Positions 10,912-18,622 of a stretch of 64,000 bases of DNA are shown in pieces. The stretch is taken from positions 62,001-126,000 of the forward strand of contig NZ_JAAXCV010000022.1 in NCBI RefSeq assembly GCF_012911895.1, given 5' to 3'. Source of the stretch: Bacillus sp. RO3. GTDB lineage: Bacteria; Bacillota; Bacilli; Bacillales; Bacillaceae_B. The position numbers were made by a program, and so were the translations under genes. Below the pieces are notes generated by a model that saw only the letters and a list, made by a program, of their open reading frames with translations, ran no database searches and was not told where the DNA came from. The first letter of the stretch is position 1; each line of letters starts with the position of its first letter.

Positions 10912-11015
10912 CAGTTGATAAAAAAACCATCGAAGTCGATAAAAAATAAAGTAAAGTCGATAAAATATAGACTAAAGTCGATAGAAAACGATCAAAGTCG
11001 ATAAAACAAGCTTCA
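10912..11015. repeat. Tandem array, five A-rich units of 20-21 bp
   Basis: Five consecutive units, starting at 10912, 10933, 10954, 10975 and 10995, each 20 or 21 bases. The last four begin AAGTCGATA and all run into an A-tract. The period equals about two turns of B-DNA, so A-tracts are helically phased and the DNA may be curved. A second array of the same period but different core lies at 19519-19623. No coding potential is seen. Confidence 0.85.
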
Positions 11016-11101
11016 CAATCAATGATAACAAGAATTTCATGTTGATTTTGGAGGTAGCTGTATATTCTAACGCTTCTTAACTATGAGGGAACATTGACCA
11101 A

Positions 11102-11410
11102 GCCGCCTTTTCGGCCACTTCGCCTTATGCATGTCGCCTCTGGCAAAGCCCCTCCGCTATTCGATTGTCCAGCTCCGGCGGGTAGTCCCTCGAGGTCATT
11201 TATGAAAAATCCCCAAAGGCAAAGAACGCCTTCAGGGATTTCCCATAAATGCTTGTCGGGCCTGACCAACCCACCTCCGCTTTTCGATTGTCCAGCTCCG
11301 GCGGGTAGCCCCTCGAGGTCATAAGTCAAATCTGCCAAAAAGGCAAAAAGCCGCCTTTTGGCAGCTTCGTCTTATGCTTGTCGGGCCTGACCACCCCCCC
11401 TTCGCTTTTC
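11102..11410. repeat. Interspersed repeat, two full copies and one partial copy
   Basis: Copies at about 11167-11285 and 11287-11409 share GTCCAGCTCCGGCGGGTAG, CCCTCGAGGTCAT, a palindromic centre and CTTGTCGGGCCTGACCA. A 3' half copy lies at about 11102-11165. The centre differs between copies but keeps self-complementarity. The same family appears in inverted orientation at 33375-33591 and 50529-50774. Open frames through it are artefacts of the palindromes. The stretch 11016-11101 and the remainder up to nusB hold nothing else recognisable. Confidence 0.85.
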
Positions 11411-14493: not shown

Positions 14494-15384
14494 GTGAATC
14501 CTCACTTTGGTCTGAAAGAATTTCAACAAGAGCATTCAGAACGGATTATCCGTCATATGATCGAGAACGTAGAGAAAATCTCTATGCCACCCATTTTGAA
14601 GCAAGCCATGATTTATTCTTTAGAGGCAGGGGGAAAAAGAATTCGTCCCATTCTTGTCCTGGCAACCATCAAAGCTTTTGACAAAGATCCATTGCTGGGA
14701 TTGAACACGGCTTCGGCACTGGAAATGATCCATACCTATTCCTTGATTCACGACGATCTTCCCGCAATGGACGATGACGATTTAAGAAGAGGGAAGCCCA
14801 CCAATCATAAAATATTTGGAGAAGCCATGGCCATTTTGGCAGGGGATGGTTTACTGACGTACAGTTTTCAACTGATCTCAGAGGACAAGAACCTTACCAG
14901 TGATATGAAGATGAGGCTTATCAGTCTTCTGGCAAAATGTGCTGGACCTGAAGGCATGGTTGGAGGGCAGGTAGCCGATATCGAAGGAGAAAATAAGCAA
15001 CTTACGGTTCAAGAGCTTGAAAGCATTCATGTCCGTAAAACCGGTAAGCTGCTTATATTCAGCGTTTTATCAGGCGGAATCATTTCCGGGGCGTCGAACG
15101 ACCAACTGGCATTACTTGAGCAATTTGCCCATCATATCGGCATCGCCTTTCAGATTCAGGATGATATTCTGGATATCGAAGGCTCCGAAGAAATAATTGG
15201 AAAGCCGGTGGGTAGCGATGATTCTAACCAAAAGAGTACATATCCGGGTCTCTTATCAGTATCGGGGGCTAAGGAAAAGCTTCACTTCCACTTGGACGAA
15301 GCATTATCCTCACTTCATCAACTGCCCATTGATTCCAGTCTTCTTACTGAAATCGCCCATTTAATCGTTGTCCGGAATCATTAG
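14494..15384 (+). CDS. ispA: Farnesyl diphosphate synthase
   Basis: Condenses dimethylallyl and isopentenyl diphosphate to farnesyl diphosphate. It has 296 residues with both aspartate-rich motifs, DDLPAMDDDD near residue 86 and QIQDDILD near residue 223, plus GGKRIRP at the substrate site. The start is GTG at 14494, 8 bases after AGGAGG. It lies directly upstream of the OLE RNA, the arrangement known for OLE loci (isoprenoid genes on both sides). Confidence 0.96.
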   Translation: MNPHFGLKEFQQEHSERIIRHMIENVEKISMPPILKQAMIYSLEAGGKRIRPILVLATIKAFDKDPLLGLNTASALEMIHTYSLIHDDLPAMDDDDLRRGKPTNHKIFGEAMAILAGDGLLTYSFQLISEDKNLTSDMKMRLISLLAKCAGPEGMVGGQVADIEGENKQLTVQELESIHVRKTGKLLIFSVLSGGIISGASNDQLALLEQFAHHIGIAFQIQDDILDIEGSEEIIGKPVGSDDSNQKSTYPGLLSVSGAKEKLHFHLDEALSSLHQLPIDSSLLTEIAHLIVVRNH

Positions 15385-15396
15385 AACATTCTATGT

Positions 15397-15437
15397 TTGA
15401 GCAAATTATTTAACATATGTTATAATAGGCTTATAAT
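15397..15437 (+). promoter_or_regulatory. Promoter(s) of OLE RNA
   Basis: Two overlapping sigma-A-type pairs are seen: TTGAGC (15397-15402) with TATAAT (15421-15426), spacing 18, and TTAACA (15410-15415) with TATAAT (15432-15437), spacing 16. Either would start transcription at about 15433-15444, just before the conserved OLE region. Both -10 boxes are perfect matches, so independent transcription in addition to read-through from ispA is likely. Confidence 0.6.
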
Positions 15438-15439
15438 GA

Positions 15440-16010
15440 AATATTGGGTGGTGCAGTATTCTAGTCAGTCCACCAATCCTGAAGGTGGGCCTAAAAATCC
15501 ACTAAAGGGCACATCGATGAAGTTCCTGGAATTGGCTTGAGGCGCCCAGCTTTGGGTCATATCTGGGAGTAAGGCTTGAGGGCGATCCACAATGGCATGT
15601 GGGCGTTGACCCTTAAGCCGCGGAGGCTTTGTTTCTTATGCTGGCATAAGCATATGCAATAAGAACAAAGTATGAACCTGCGATGTGACGATTCACTAGC
15701 AGCGTAGCCTGCCTTGAGTGAAGAGAGAGGGGATTATGGTTACAAGGTACACATCAGTTGGCCATTGATATGTGCTTTTTCGCCCATATGAAATCCTCTT
15801 TGCAAAAGAGGCTAAGGATTGTGTTAAGGACTGTTGAGGAAAACTCCTAGACTGTTCATATTTGGACATATAAAGAGGATTATAGTGCGGACTAAGTGGT
15901 AATCCAGTCTAGCTTGTGGTGACGCGGCTAAGTCGGGTTTAATGGGAAACCGCCGGTATGGCAACATCCGGTACCCGATTGGGAAAACCTACTGGACCTA
16001 AGCTGCAATT
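15440..16010 (+). ncRNA. ole: OLE RNA (ornate, large, extremophilic)
   Basis: About 570 bases with no open frame, between ispA and oapA-dxs, the established context of OLE RNA. Its ends can pair: TGCAG (15452) with CTGCA (16003) and GTCCA (15468) with TGGAC (15993). Internal helices include CCACC/GGTGG (about 15471-15488), CTTTGTTTCTTAT with ATAAGAACAAAG (15627-15670), CCTCTTT/AAAGAGG (about 15795-15811) and TCGGGT/ACCCGA (15933-15978). In B. halodurans OLE forms a membrane ribonucleoprotein with OapA and affects cold, alcohol and magnesium tolerance. Exact ends are uncertain by tens of bases. Confidence 0.85.
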
Positions 16011-16084
16011 TTTACTCTTTATATGACCATCCAATTACATAGTGATAACTATTTACACGATAGAAATGGTGTGTTTAAACGATA

Positions 16085-16708
16085 ATGAATGAAACAATGA
16101 AAAACTCAATAAAGTGGAGTGTCAGCATTGCCGTTATCACATTTGTGTTAGCGGCTATTTTTTCAGTTACATCCAATATGGTTTTAAATGGGGTCGCATG
16201 GTATGCAGGGCTGGTCGTTGTACTCATCATCGTCTTCATCGGAATTTTCTTCGATATGCTGGGGATTGCTGCAACAGCCGCCGATGAAACACCTTTTCAT
16301 TCCATGGCGGCCAAAAAGGTGTACGGTGCCCGTTATTCCATTAAAATCGTCCGGAACGCCGATAAATTCGCCAGCTTCTGTAACGATGTCATCGGTGATA
16401 TTTCAGGGATTATAAGTGGTACTGCGTCAGCAATTGTCATTATTCAACTGACCATCTCTTTTCAACTTGAGGGAGGATCTTTAAAGGAATATATTGTAAG
16501 CGTTACACTGACAAGTTTCATCGCTTCCTTGACCGTAGGAGGCAAAGCACTTGGAAAAACGTTTGCTATCACCTATTCTAAGGATATAATATTTAGAGTT
16601 GGTAAAGTTCTACAATTTGTCGAAGATCGATTTCATATTGTGTTGATGAAAGACAAAAAAGATAAAACAAAGAAAAAACGTTACAAGCGAGCGAAACAAA
16701 ATATTTAG
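16085..16708 (+). CDS. oapA: OLE-associated protein OapA, membrane protein
   Basis: 207-residue polytopic membrane protein that binds OLE RNA and brings it to the membrane in the known system. Hydrophobic segments lie at about 11-31, 37-57, 106-126 and 137-155. The conserved FDMLGIAATAADETPFHSMA follows the second, and DVIGDISGIISG precedes the third. The C-terminus is strongly basic (KDKKDKTKKKRYKRAK), suited to RNA contact. No strong ribosome-binding site precedes the ATG (only GGTGTG), unlike its neighbours. It lies 75 bases after OLE and 21 before dxs. Confidence 0.88.
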   Translation: MNETMKNSIKWSVSIAVITFVLAAIFSVTSNMVLNGVAWYAGLVVVLIIVFIGIFFDMLGIAATAADETPFHSMAAKKVYGARYSIKIVRNADKFASFCNDVIGDISGIISGTASAIVIIQLTISFQLEGGSLKEYIVSVTLTSFIASLTVGGKALGKTFAITYSKDIIFRVGKVLQFVEDRFHIVLMKDKKDKTKKKRYKRAKQNI

Positions 16709-16729
16709 TGATGAAAGTGAGTGGACCCC

Positions 16730-18622
16730 ATGGATTTATTATCAATAAAGGAGCCTTCTTTTCTTAAAAATATGACGAATGAAGAACTGGAAGAGCTCAG
16801 TCAAGAGATTCGCCATTTCTTAATAGAGAATCTATCTAAGACTGGCGGTCATATTGGTCCAAATTTAGGGGTGGTCGAATTAACCGTAGCCCTTCATAAG
16901 CATTTCACAAGCCCAAAAGATAAAATCCTTTGGGATGTAGGTCATCAATCATATGTTCATAAAATCCTGACCGGTCGTGCCTGTCAGTTTGATACATTGC
17001 GACAGTATAAAGGGTTATGCGGATTTCCTAAACGAAATGAGAGCGCGCATGATGTATGGGAAACGGGTCACAGCTCTACTTCACTCTCTGCAGCCATGGG
17101 AATGGCCATTGCCAGGGATGTCAAAAAAGAAGATTCATTTATCATTCCTGTCATCGGGGATGGAGCCTTGACAGGTGGTATGGCTCTCGAAGCACTCAAC
17201 CACATTGGTCATGAAAAGAAAGATATGATTGTTGTATTAAATGACAATGAAATGTCCATCGCTCCAAATGTAGGTGCCCTGCACAGTGTTCTTGGCCGCC
17301 TGAGAACCGCCGGGAAATATAATTGGGTCAAGGATGAAATGGAGTACATCCTGAAACGGATCCCGGCTGTGGGAGGCAAATTGGCAAGTACTGCCGAGCG
17401 GGTCAAGGACAGCCTGAAGTATTTATTTGTTTCAGGGATGTTCTTTGAGGAGCTGGGATTCACCTATCTTGGACCGATTGACGGACACGATTATCATGAT
17501 CTATCCGAAAATATCCAATATGCGAAGAAAACCAAAGGCCCCGTCCTTTTGCACGTCATTACAAAAAAGGGAAAAGGATATCATCCGGCAGAATCAGATA
17601 AGAAGGGCACATGGCATGGTACGGGTCCCTATAAGATTGATACGGGAGATTTGATCAAACCTATAAACGCGCCGCCTTCCTGGAGCGGTCTTGTAAGTGA
17701 GACCGTCAGAAAGATTGCCCGTGAAGATGAAAGGGTTGTCGCGATTACCCCGGCCATGCCGGTTGGATCAAAGCTCCTTGGCTTCGCCGAAGAATTTCCG
17801 GACCGGATGTTTGATGTAGGAATTGCCGAACAGCATGCAACCACCGTTGCGGCTGGCCTGGCTACTCAAGATATGAAGCCTTTTCTTGCCATTTATTCAA
17901 CATTCCTGCAACGAGCTTATGATCAGGTAGTACATGATATCTGCAGGCAGAATCTCAATGTGTTCATCGGGATTGACCGTGCAGGACTAGTCGGAGCCGA
18001 TGGGGAAACACATCAAGGAGTATTTGATATTGCTTTTTTAAGGCATTTACCGAATATGGTGCTTATGATGCCGAAAGACGAAAATGAAGGTCAGCACCTT
18101 GTCAAGACGGCTCTTGAATATAATGACGGTCCGATTGCACTCCGCTATCCCCGTGGAAACGGGTATGGGGTACCGATGGATTCGGAGCTGAAAGCCATCC
18201 CTATCGGAACATGGGAAGTGTTAAAGCAGGGGAAAGATGCGGCAATCCTTACATTTGGTACGACGATTCCAATGGCAATGGAAGCAGCTGCAGAGCTTGA
18301 AAAGCAAGGTCTTTCTGTACGGGTCGTCAATGCGAGGTTCATTAAACCCATGGACGAAATGATGCTGAAGAGTATCCTTGAAGAAGAAATGCCTGTATTA
18401 ACGATCGAAGAGGCAGTTCTTCAAGGCGGGTTCGGTAGCGGTGTTCTAGAGTTTGCACAAGAGCATGGATTCCATAACGCCGTGATTGACCGCATCGGGA
18501 TCCCTGACTATTTCATTGAGCACGGCAGCGTGAAAGAATTATTGAACGAAATCGGCATGACAAAAGACAATGTCGTTGACCGTATCTTAACCATTACACC
18601 AAAAAAACAAAAAAGGGCTTAA
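16730..18622 (+). CDS. dxs: 1-deoxy-D-xylulose-5-phosphate synthase
   Basis: First enzyme of the methylerythritol phosphate route to isoprenoids; joins pyruvate and glyceraldehyde-3-phosphate using thiamine diphosphate. It has 630 residues. TPP-binding [14 protein letters not shown] with downstream NDNEMSI, the transketolase signature DVGIAEQH and a C-terminal transketolase domain are present. The start at 16730 ([15 protein letters not shown]) matches B. subtilis Dxs; an in-frame GTG at 16721 is less likely. Isoprenoid genes ispA and dxs flank OLE/oapA. Confidence 0.97.

Follow-up and report, generated by a model that had tools for sequence, protein, structure and literature searches.

The closest described system is the OLE RNA of Halalkalibacterium halodurans. 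There, according to PMC9723947, ole has its own promoter, belongs to a larger operon and presumably reaches its length of about 630 nt by posttranscriptional processing. From the published H. halodurans work, full-length OLE would be expected to form a membrane ribonucleoprotein with the proteins OapA, OapB and OapC. The GGCC loop L9.3 is described as an OLE dimer bridge in PMC12286853, and Mg2+ exporters of the MpfA/CNNM-CBS-CorC type are proposed as OLE replacements in PMC11332333. The second body of work with a bearing on this locus concerns transcription in Bacillus: in B. subtilis RNA polymerase outruns the ribosomes, a situation called runaway transcription in a study that concerns Rho (PMC13323073).

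The window, that is, the whole 64,000-nucleotide stretch analysed here, carries a genuine, ordinary full-length member of this known RNA between ispA and dxs (Table 1). The sequence-only reading had assigned the region to OLE and proposed a covariance search with the Rfam model as a check. That search was run (cmscan) and bears the assignment out: the match covers both ends of the model, its score lies far above the gathering score of 50, and OLE is the sole Rfam family at gathering score in the whole window. The same reading described a gene-free stretch of about 570 bases beginning at 15440. Its location and lack of reading frames hold good, since the 700-base gap between ispA and oapA contains no ORF of at least 60 aa on either strand and is mostly taken up by the OLE match; the RNA itself is longer, at about 615 nt, and the proposed start came 8 bases late. 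The GGCC within OLE is probably the self-complementary dimer-bridge loop L9.3. The oapA start lies 38 bases past the end of the OLE match.

Table 1. Features of the OLE locus, in positions of the window
Feature	Position	Strand	Basis
ispA (farnesyl diphosphate synthase), upstream neighbour	14494..15384	+	NCBIfam FPPsyn, E 6.6e-126
Candidate OLE promoter, TTGAGC-18-TATAAT	15397..15426	+	consensus scan, second-best score
Overlapping promoter match, TTAACA-16-TATAAT, higher score	15410-15437	+	consensus scan
OLE RNA, full length	15432..16046	+	Rfam RF01071, 533.7 bits, E 1.1e-153, model 1-616/616
GGCC, loop of a long hairpin in OLE	15760..15763	+	matches GGCC in the consensus of the model
oapA, 207 aa membrane protein with basic tail	16085..16708	+	position; identity to OapA-type proteins
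Hairpin GCCGTTATCAC-ATTT-GTGTTAGCGGC, oapA codons 16-24	16130..16155	+	dG, shuffles, codon freeze, pattern spread
T-tract TATTTTTTC, directly after the hairpin	16156..16164	+	sequence; similar tails in OLE-bearing and OLE-less loci
dxs, downstream neighbour	16721..18622	+	TIGR00204, E 8.1e-293

Upstream of nusB, the window also holds five AGTCGATAAAA-like units at 10913-11029, spaced 20-21 bases or about two helical turns apart, which are possibly phased protein-binding sites. Two more direct-repeat families occupy the same gap before nusB (11144-11410; 83 nt at 80% and 37 nt at 92%, spacing about 124).

The basic-tailed membrane protein that the sequence-only reading saw after the RNA, and took for the partner OapA, is indeed encoded there. 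Its tail is rich in lysine, and it shares 45-71% identity and 34 invariant positions with 12 OapA-type proteins from elsewhere in the Bacillota. It resembles the CNNM domain PF01595 weakly (E 0.0012; 19 bits, under the Pfam cut-off of 28.4), and a search of PDB sequences gave no match at E<=1. The protein is 100% identical to OapA of Rossellomorea sp. AcN35-11, an identity by which the window's organism is assigned to Rossellomorea. This genus comprises mesophilic, often marine bacilli, which agrees with the host that had been suggested from the DNA alone. The window's genome also contains oapB, which matches PDB 7k9b, 'OLE-associated protein B', at E 2.5e-31 and lies between genes that I take, by eye, to be map and infA, and an OapC/YbxF-like gene (identified by a Pfam L7Ae match and by its position) beside what is presumably rpsL. 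Elsewhere in the genus, the OapA match of G016 (L116) spans one in-frame TGA, probably in the variable C-terminal tail.

Both OLE and oapA are present in 33 of 36 Rossellomorea genomes, and the same three (G011, G012 and G013) lack the two together. A family-level scan comprised only the same 36 genomes, and the order level was used instead: OLE was found in 224 of 397 genomes and 83 of 129 genera, under stricter filters by which weak matches can be lost. Membership in the family is therefore no news in itself, and the use for comparative structure work that had been expected of this copy is modest. In a three-protein tree, G011-G013 form one clade (support 100; adjoining branches 87 and 100) nested inside OLE-bearing Rossellomorea. 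Their gene order nusB-folD-xseA-xseB-ispA-dxs-tlyA is intact, their ispA-dxs gaps measure 343-349 bases, and no OLE was found in this region at E<=1. The gaps hold broken pieces of oapA: a 44-nt piece at 93% identity (E 5e-15 in G011), then further collinear pieces. OapB and OapC are retained. In G011 the gap between tlyA and argR is about 2.2 kb (L110, 8112-10302), compared with about 0.5 kb in the window.

Do MpfA-type exporters replace OLE where it has been lost? Each of the three OLE-less Rossellomorea encodes 6 CorC_HlyC proteins, compared with 2-4 in the 33 that bear OLE, which resembles what the replacement proposal would predict. However, a hand tally over the order sample, in which seven genera contain both states, shows the OLE-less members up in 3, equal in 2 and down in 2. 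The sign is thus mixed despite the striking Rossellomorea result, and I reject compensation by MpfA as a general rule; the replacement idea is weakened accordingly. The OLE-less Rossellomorea (L120, L126, L132) have two MpfA-like genes in tandem, which fell into groups of their own when 45 proteins of 12 genomes were clustered.

Codons 16-27 of oapA (16130-16164) contain a feature that the sequence-only reading had missed, a hairpin of the general form GCCGTTATCAC-NNNN-GTGTTAGCGGC followed directly by a T-tract. The 26-mer has a dG of -12.9 kcal/mol and is more stable than shuffled sequence (z -4.5 over 44 nt, -2.65 over 71 nt, where a longer stem encloses it). Across 14 genes of the window, which make up 13,185 bases of coding sequence, no second hairpin of this strength is followed by a T-tract. 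A stable G+C-rich hairpin and then a T-tract is characteristic of an intrinsic terminator, and the T-tract makes this hairpin terminator-like, so that the element looks like a transcription stop signal. The stem holds a G-U wobble and a fixed 1x1 mismatch, and the latter is taken to be the reason why a consensus terminator scan passed it over. Of 37 sequences, all 23 loci of the Bacillaceae type have the hairpin some 45 bases after the oapA start (L060 being recognised in a later alignment), and it was not found in the remaining 14, from Paenactinomyces, Clostridia and MAGs. It is also present in 25 of 25 OLE-bearing loci of a second, overlapping set, 660-748 bp after the 5' element of OLE. 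No Rfam family matches the hairpin in the window or in the 8 OLE-less loci scanned. The Rfam matches obtained in OLE-less loci are taken as chance.

The codons that encode the hairpin are constrained beyond the protein. From 77 oapA genes, 52 distinct, 39 were retained that are at most 93% identical to each other, and among these the mean same-codon probability is 0.91 at the 12 hairpin codons and 0.45 at the 169 others; none of 20,000 resamplings reached the hairpin value. Codons 16, 17, 18, 21 and 23 are each a single codon in all 39 genes (GCC, GTT, ATC, GTG and GCG), and codon 22 is TTA in 38, whereas the 62 four-fold codons elsewhere in oapA average 0.33 with a maximum of 0.55. Two observations count against a termination reading: codon 19, at the loop, varies (0.48), and the freeze extends to some codons ahead of the hairpin, codon 9 among them (ATA in 35 of 35).

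The hairpin is not confined to genomes with OLE. Allowing up to 2 mismatches, the pattern is present in 267 of the 397 genomes and its reversed control in none of them. The 267 comprise 211 of 224 with OLE and 56 of 173 without, each with one copy except G333, which has two. Twenty OLE-less loci (L208-L227) were chosen by the pattern at this threshold; 19 of them have it between ispA and dxs, with no match to the window's OapA. The exception is G201 (L225), whose match lies away from ispA-dxs and was dropped from the OLE-less alignment and promoter test; this 2-mismatch copy (L225, 2983-3008) also has a T-rich tail. Among 16 OLE-less clade representatives, hand-picked from 30, the fraction that agrees with the most frequent base is 0.44 upstream, 0.92 across the hairpin, 0.81 over the next 10 bases and 0.44 beyond, with an invariance that is partly built in because 11 of the 16 were pattern-selected; L110, L184, L186, L188 and L192 were found without the pattern. 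The tail on the dxs side, non-coding in all 16, has 5-7 T in 9 positions against a background T fraction of 0.32. The stem hardly varies, and the 16 representatives show one-sided changes only, so there is no compensatory pair change to prove the fold.

Remnants of oapA itself also persist. In twelve OLE-less genomes of six other genera ispA still adjoins dxs, across gaps of 98-563 bases with no Rfam match at E<=0.1. The oapA body matches at E<=0.01 in 10 of the 12 gaps (shuffled-gap control, 4 matches in 240 queries, best E 0.003). The other two, L183 and L191, have gaps of 98 and 102 bases; they align solely in the final part ahead of dxs and are left out of the oapA fossils, the compared region having run past the oapA start to the dxs ribosome site. 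The stretch around codons 16-27 is retained in 9 of the 12, the exceptions being L182, L183 and L191. In the fossils L178 and L192 the stem letters are kept with no good T-tract, which again counts against termination.

A plain terminator offers a comparison. The terminator of tlyA in the window is stronger than the oapA hairpin (-15.8), but at up to 4 mismatches only L031 among 21 Rossellomorea loci has a copy, and the OapA of L031 equals that of the window; none of 31 further loci has one, whereas the oapA hairpin occurs in all 52, a set in which 17 loci were pattern-selected and from which loci with fewer than 60 bases after tlyA fell out. The primary sequence of the oapA hairpin, the 1x1 mismatch included, is thus kept more than a plain terminator needs.

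Upstream of OLE, a consensus match just past ispA is a candidate promoter, overlapped by a higher-scoring one (Table 1). The best promoter match upstream of OLE begins TTGAG in 15 of 25 OLE-bearing loci, a count made without a shuffle control, and the -35 box of the best match upstream of the hairpin begins in the same way in 18 of 30 OLE-less loci. In the latter, the promoter score reaches p<=0.05 upstream of the hairpin in 15 of 30, compared with 3 of 30 between hairpin and dxs, and the distance from -10 box to stem is 19-211 nt.

The reading I prefer, and regard as probable, is that the transcription unit of OLE has its terminator within oapA, so that oapA and dxs would rely on read-through. 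Besides the varying loop codon, the frozen codons ahead of the stem and the fossils with poor T-tracts, several results weigh against it: the invariant stem with its strict sequence, the longer stem that encloses the hairpin in the 71-nt fold, the absence of the pattern at 2 mismatches from 13 of the 224 OLE-bearing genomes and of the hairpin from the 14 Paenactinomyces, Clostridia and MAG loci, the three of 12 OLE-less gaps that kept no hairpin, and a promoter that is a consensus match only. That the hairpin is instead a by-product of coding for the OapA N-terminus or of codon preference, with the OLE-less copies as young remnants, draws on the good conservation of the peptide AVITxVLAA in Bacillaceae-type OapA. 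It is nonetheless extremely unlikely. The four-fold codons elsewhere in the gene vary, and coding does not force the hairpin: in the five of the 13 pattern-less OLE-bearing genomes whose oapA was examined, a similar peptide is written in other codons with no comparable terminator. The contrast between hairpin and flanks in OLE-less loci speaks against it too, to the extent that pattern selection of 11 of the 16 representatives does not favour that contrast. A distinctly improbable alternative is a DNA operator, at which a repressor or activator of the OLE/dxs region would bind the inverted repeat and no RNA structure would be involved. Strict sequence conservation and the near-universal single copy would suit such a site. 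However, the T-rich tail stays on the dxs side even where nothing is coded, the wobble and fixed mismatch spoil a DNA repeat and suit an RNA hairpin, and the site lies hundreds of base pairs downstream of the OLE 5' element in every OLE-bearing locus of the second set.

Closer to termination is a regulated attenuator, in which a leader or bound factor would set termination against read-through into oapA and dxs, or into dxs alone in OLE-less species. The usual order of promoter, leader, terminator and gene is found in the OLE-less loci, and conservation at the level of sequence, together with the fixed mismatch, suggests recognition by something. In OLE-bearing loci, the leader together with the 5' arm is slightly more stable than its shuffled versions, with z at or below -1.3 in 8 of 18, but overall there is no clear antiterminator signal (mean z +0.42 over 16 OLE-less and -0.68 over 18 OLE-bearing loci, lowest -2.0), and the leaders of the OLE-less representatives are not conserved. 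On OLE, the best site for the 5' arm lies near 486-507 in 7 loci and at other places in the remaining 11 of the 18; no meaning is attached to this uncontrolled count. I consider an attenuator rather unlikely. The promoter and hairpin of OLE-less genomes could also be read as a gene for a small trans-acting RNA of about 45-240 nt with a conserved 3' hairpin, and the promoter matches upstream, with their recurrent TTGAG start, are what this would require; yet conservation is lacking in the stretch from promoter to hairpin, and the 8 loci scanned have no Rfam match at the hairpin, which leaves this reading very unlikely.

Under intragenic termination, transcription would start from the promoter just downstream of ispA and proceed through OLE, and most transcripts would stop at the intrinsic terminator in oapA codons 16-27. 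The precursor would end near 16163, at about 730 nt, and its 3' end would then be trimmed; both termination at the hairpin and this route of processing are deduced from the arrangement of the DNA. Read-through and the upstream operon would supply oapA and dxs, and termination within the gene would keep OLE in large excess over the mRNA of its partner. Loss of OLE and oapA would tend to leave promoter and terminator in place between ispA and dxs. Since polymerase outruns the ribosomes in B. subtilis, termination near the start of a gene is plausible. A wider proposal is tentative, and I hold it somewhat short of an even judgement: upstream of dxs, a sequence-specific RNA element some 36 nt long, with no Rfam match, may act in its own right, apart from OLE and OapA. 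The OLE-bearing Bacillaceae would have it written into oapA, where it would end the OLE transcript and set the OLE:OapA:Dxs ratio, and in OLE-less lineages the locus would have collapsed to promoter and element, still controlling dxs.

If the hairpin does terminate, it would explain the 3' end of OLE, so far 'presumably posttranscriptionally processed' in PMC9723947, and also how OLE could outnumber its partner mRNA. Silent codon changes would then alter the ratio of RNA to protein while neither product is touched. In OLE-less lineages, dead oapA pieces or a bare hairpin between ispA and dxs mark former OLE loci, and such fossils make OLE loss and compensation testable species by species.

The word 'terminator' is absent from the OLE papers PMC12265935, PMC11332333, PMC9723947, PMC12054373 and PMC12286853, the five searched for it; an earlier description of the terminator elsewhere is possible. 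In PMC10898510, its mentions concern the ykoY riboswitch, methods and references. Literature searches for an OLE or dxs terminator gave nothing recognised as such, judged from the listings, and the stem arm searched as text retrieved five papers, all unrelated by title.

Compared with the OLE system of H. halodurans, the locus described here has the same full-length fold, an adjoining oapA, and oapB and OapC genes; it differs in its host, which is of a mesophilic-type genus. The promoter reported there (PMC9723947) has its counterpart here in a consensus match. Compared with the intrinsic (Rho-independent) terminators and attenuators of Bacillus, the oapA hairpin has the same G+C-rich stem and following T-tract, and premature termination within a gene would fit B. 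subtilis runaway transcription as set out in PMC13323073, which is about Rho. Unlike those terminators, it lies within a coding region, and unlike the tlyA control its exact sequence is kept across genera. The OLE copy is one of hundreds, and the hairpin embedded in oapA is the new part.
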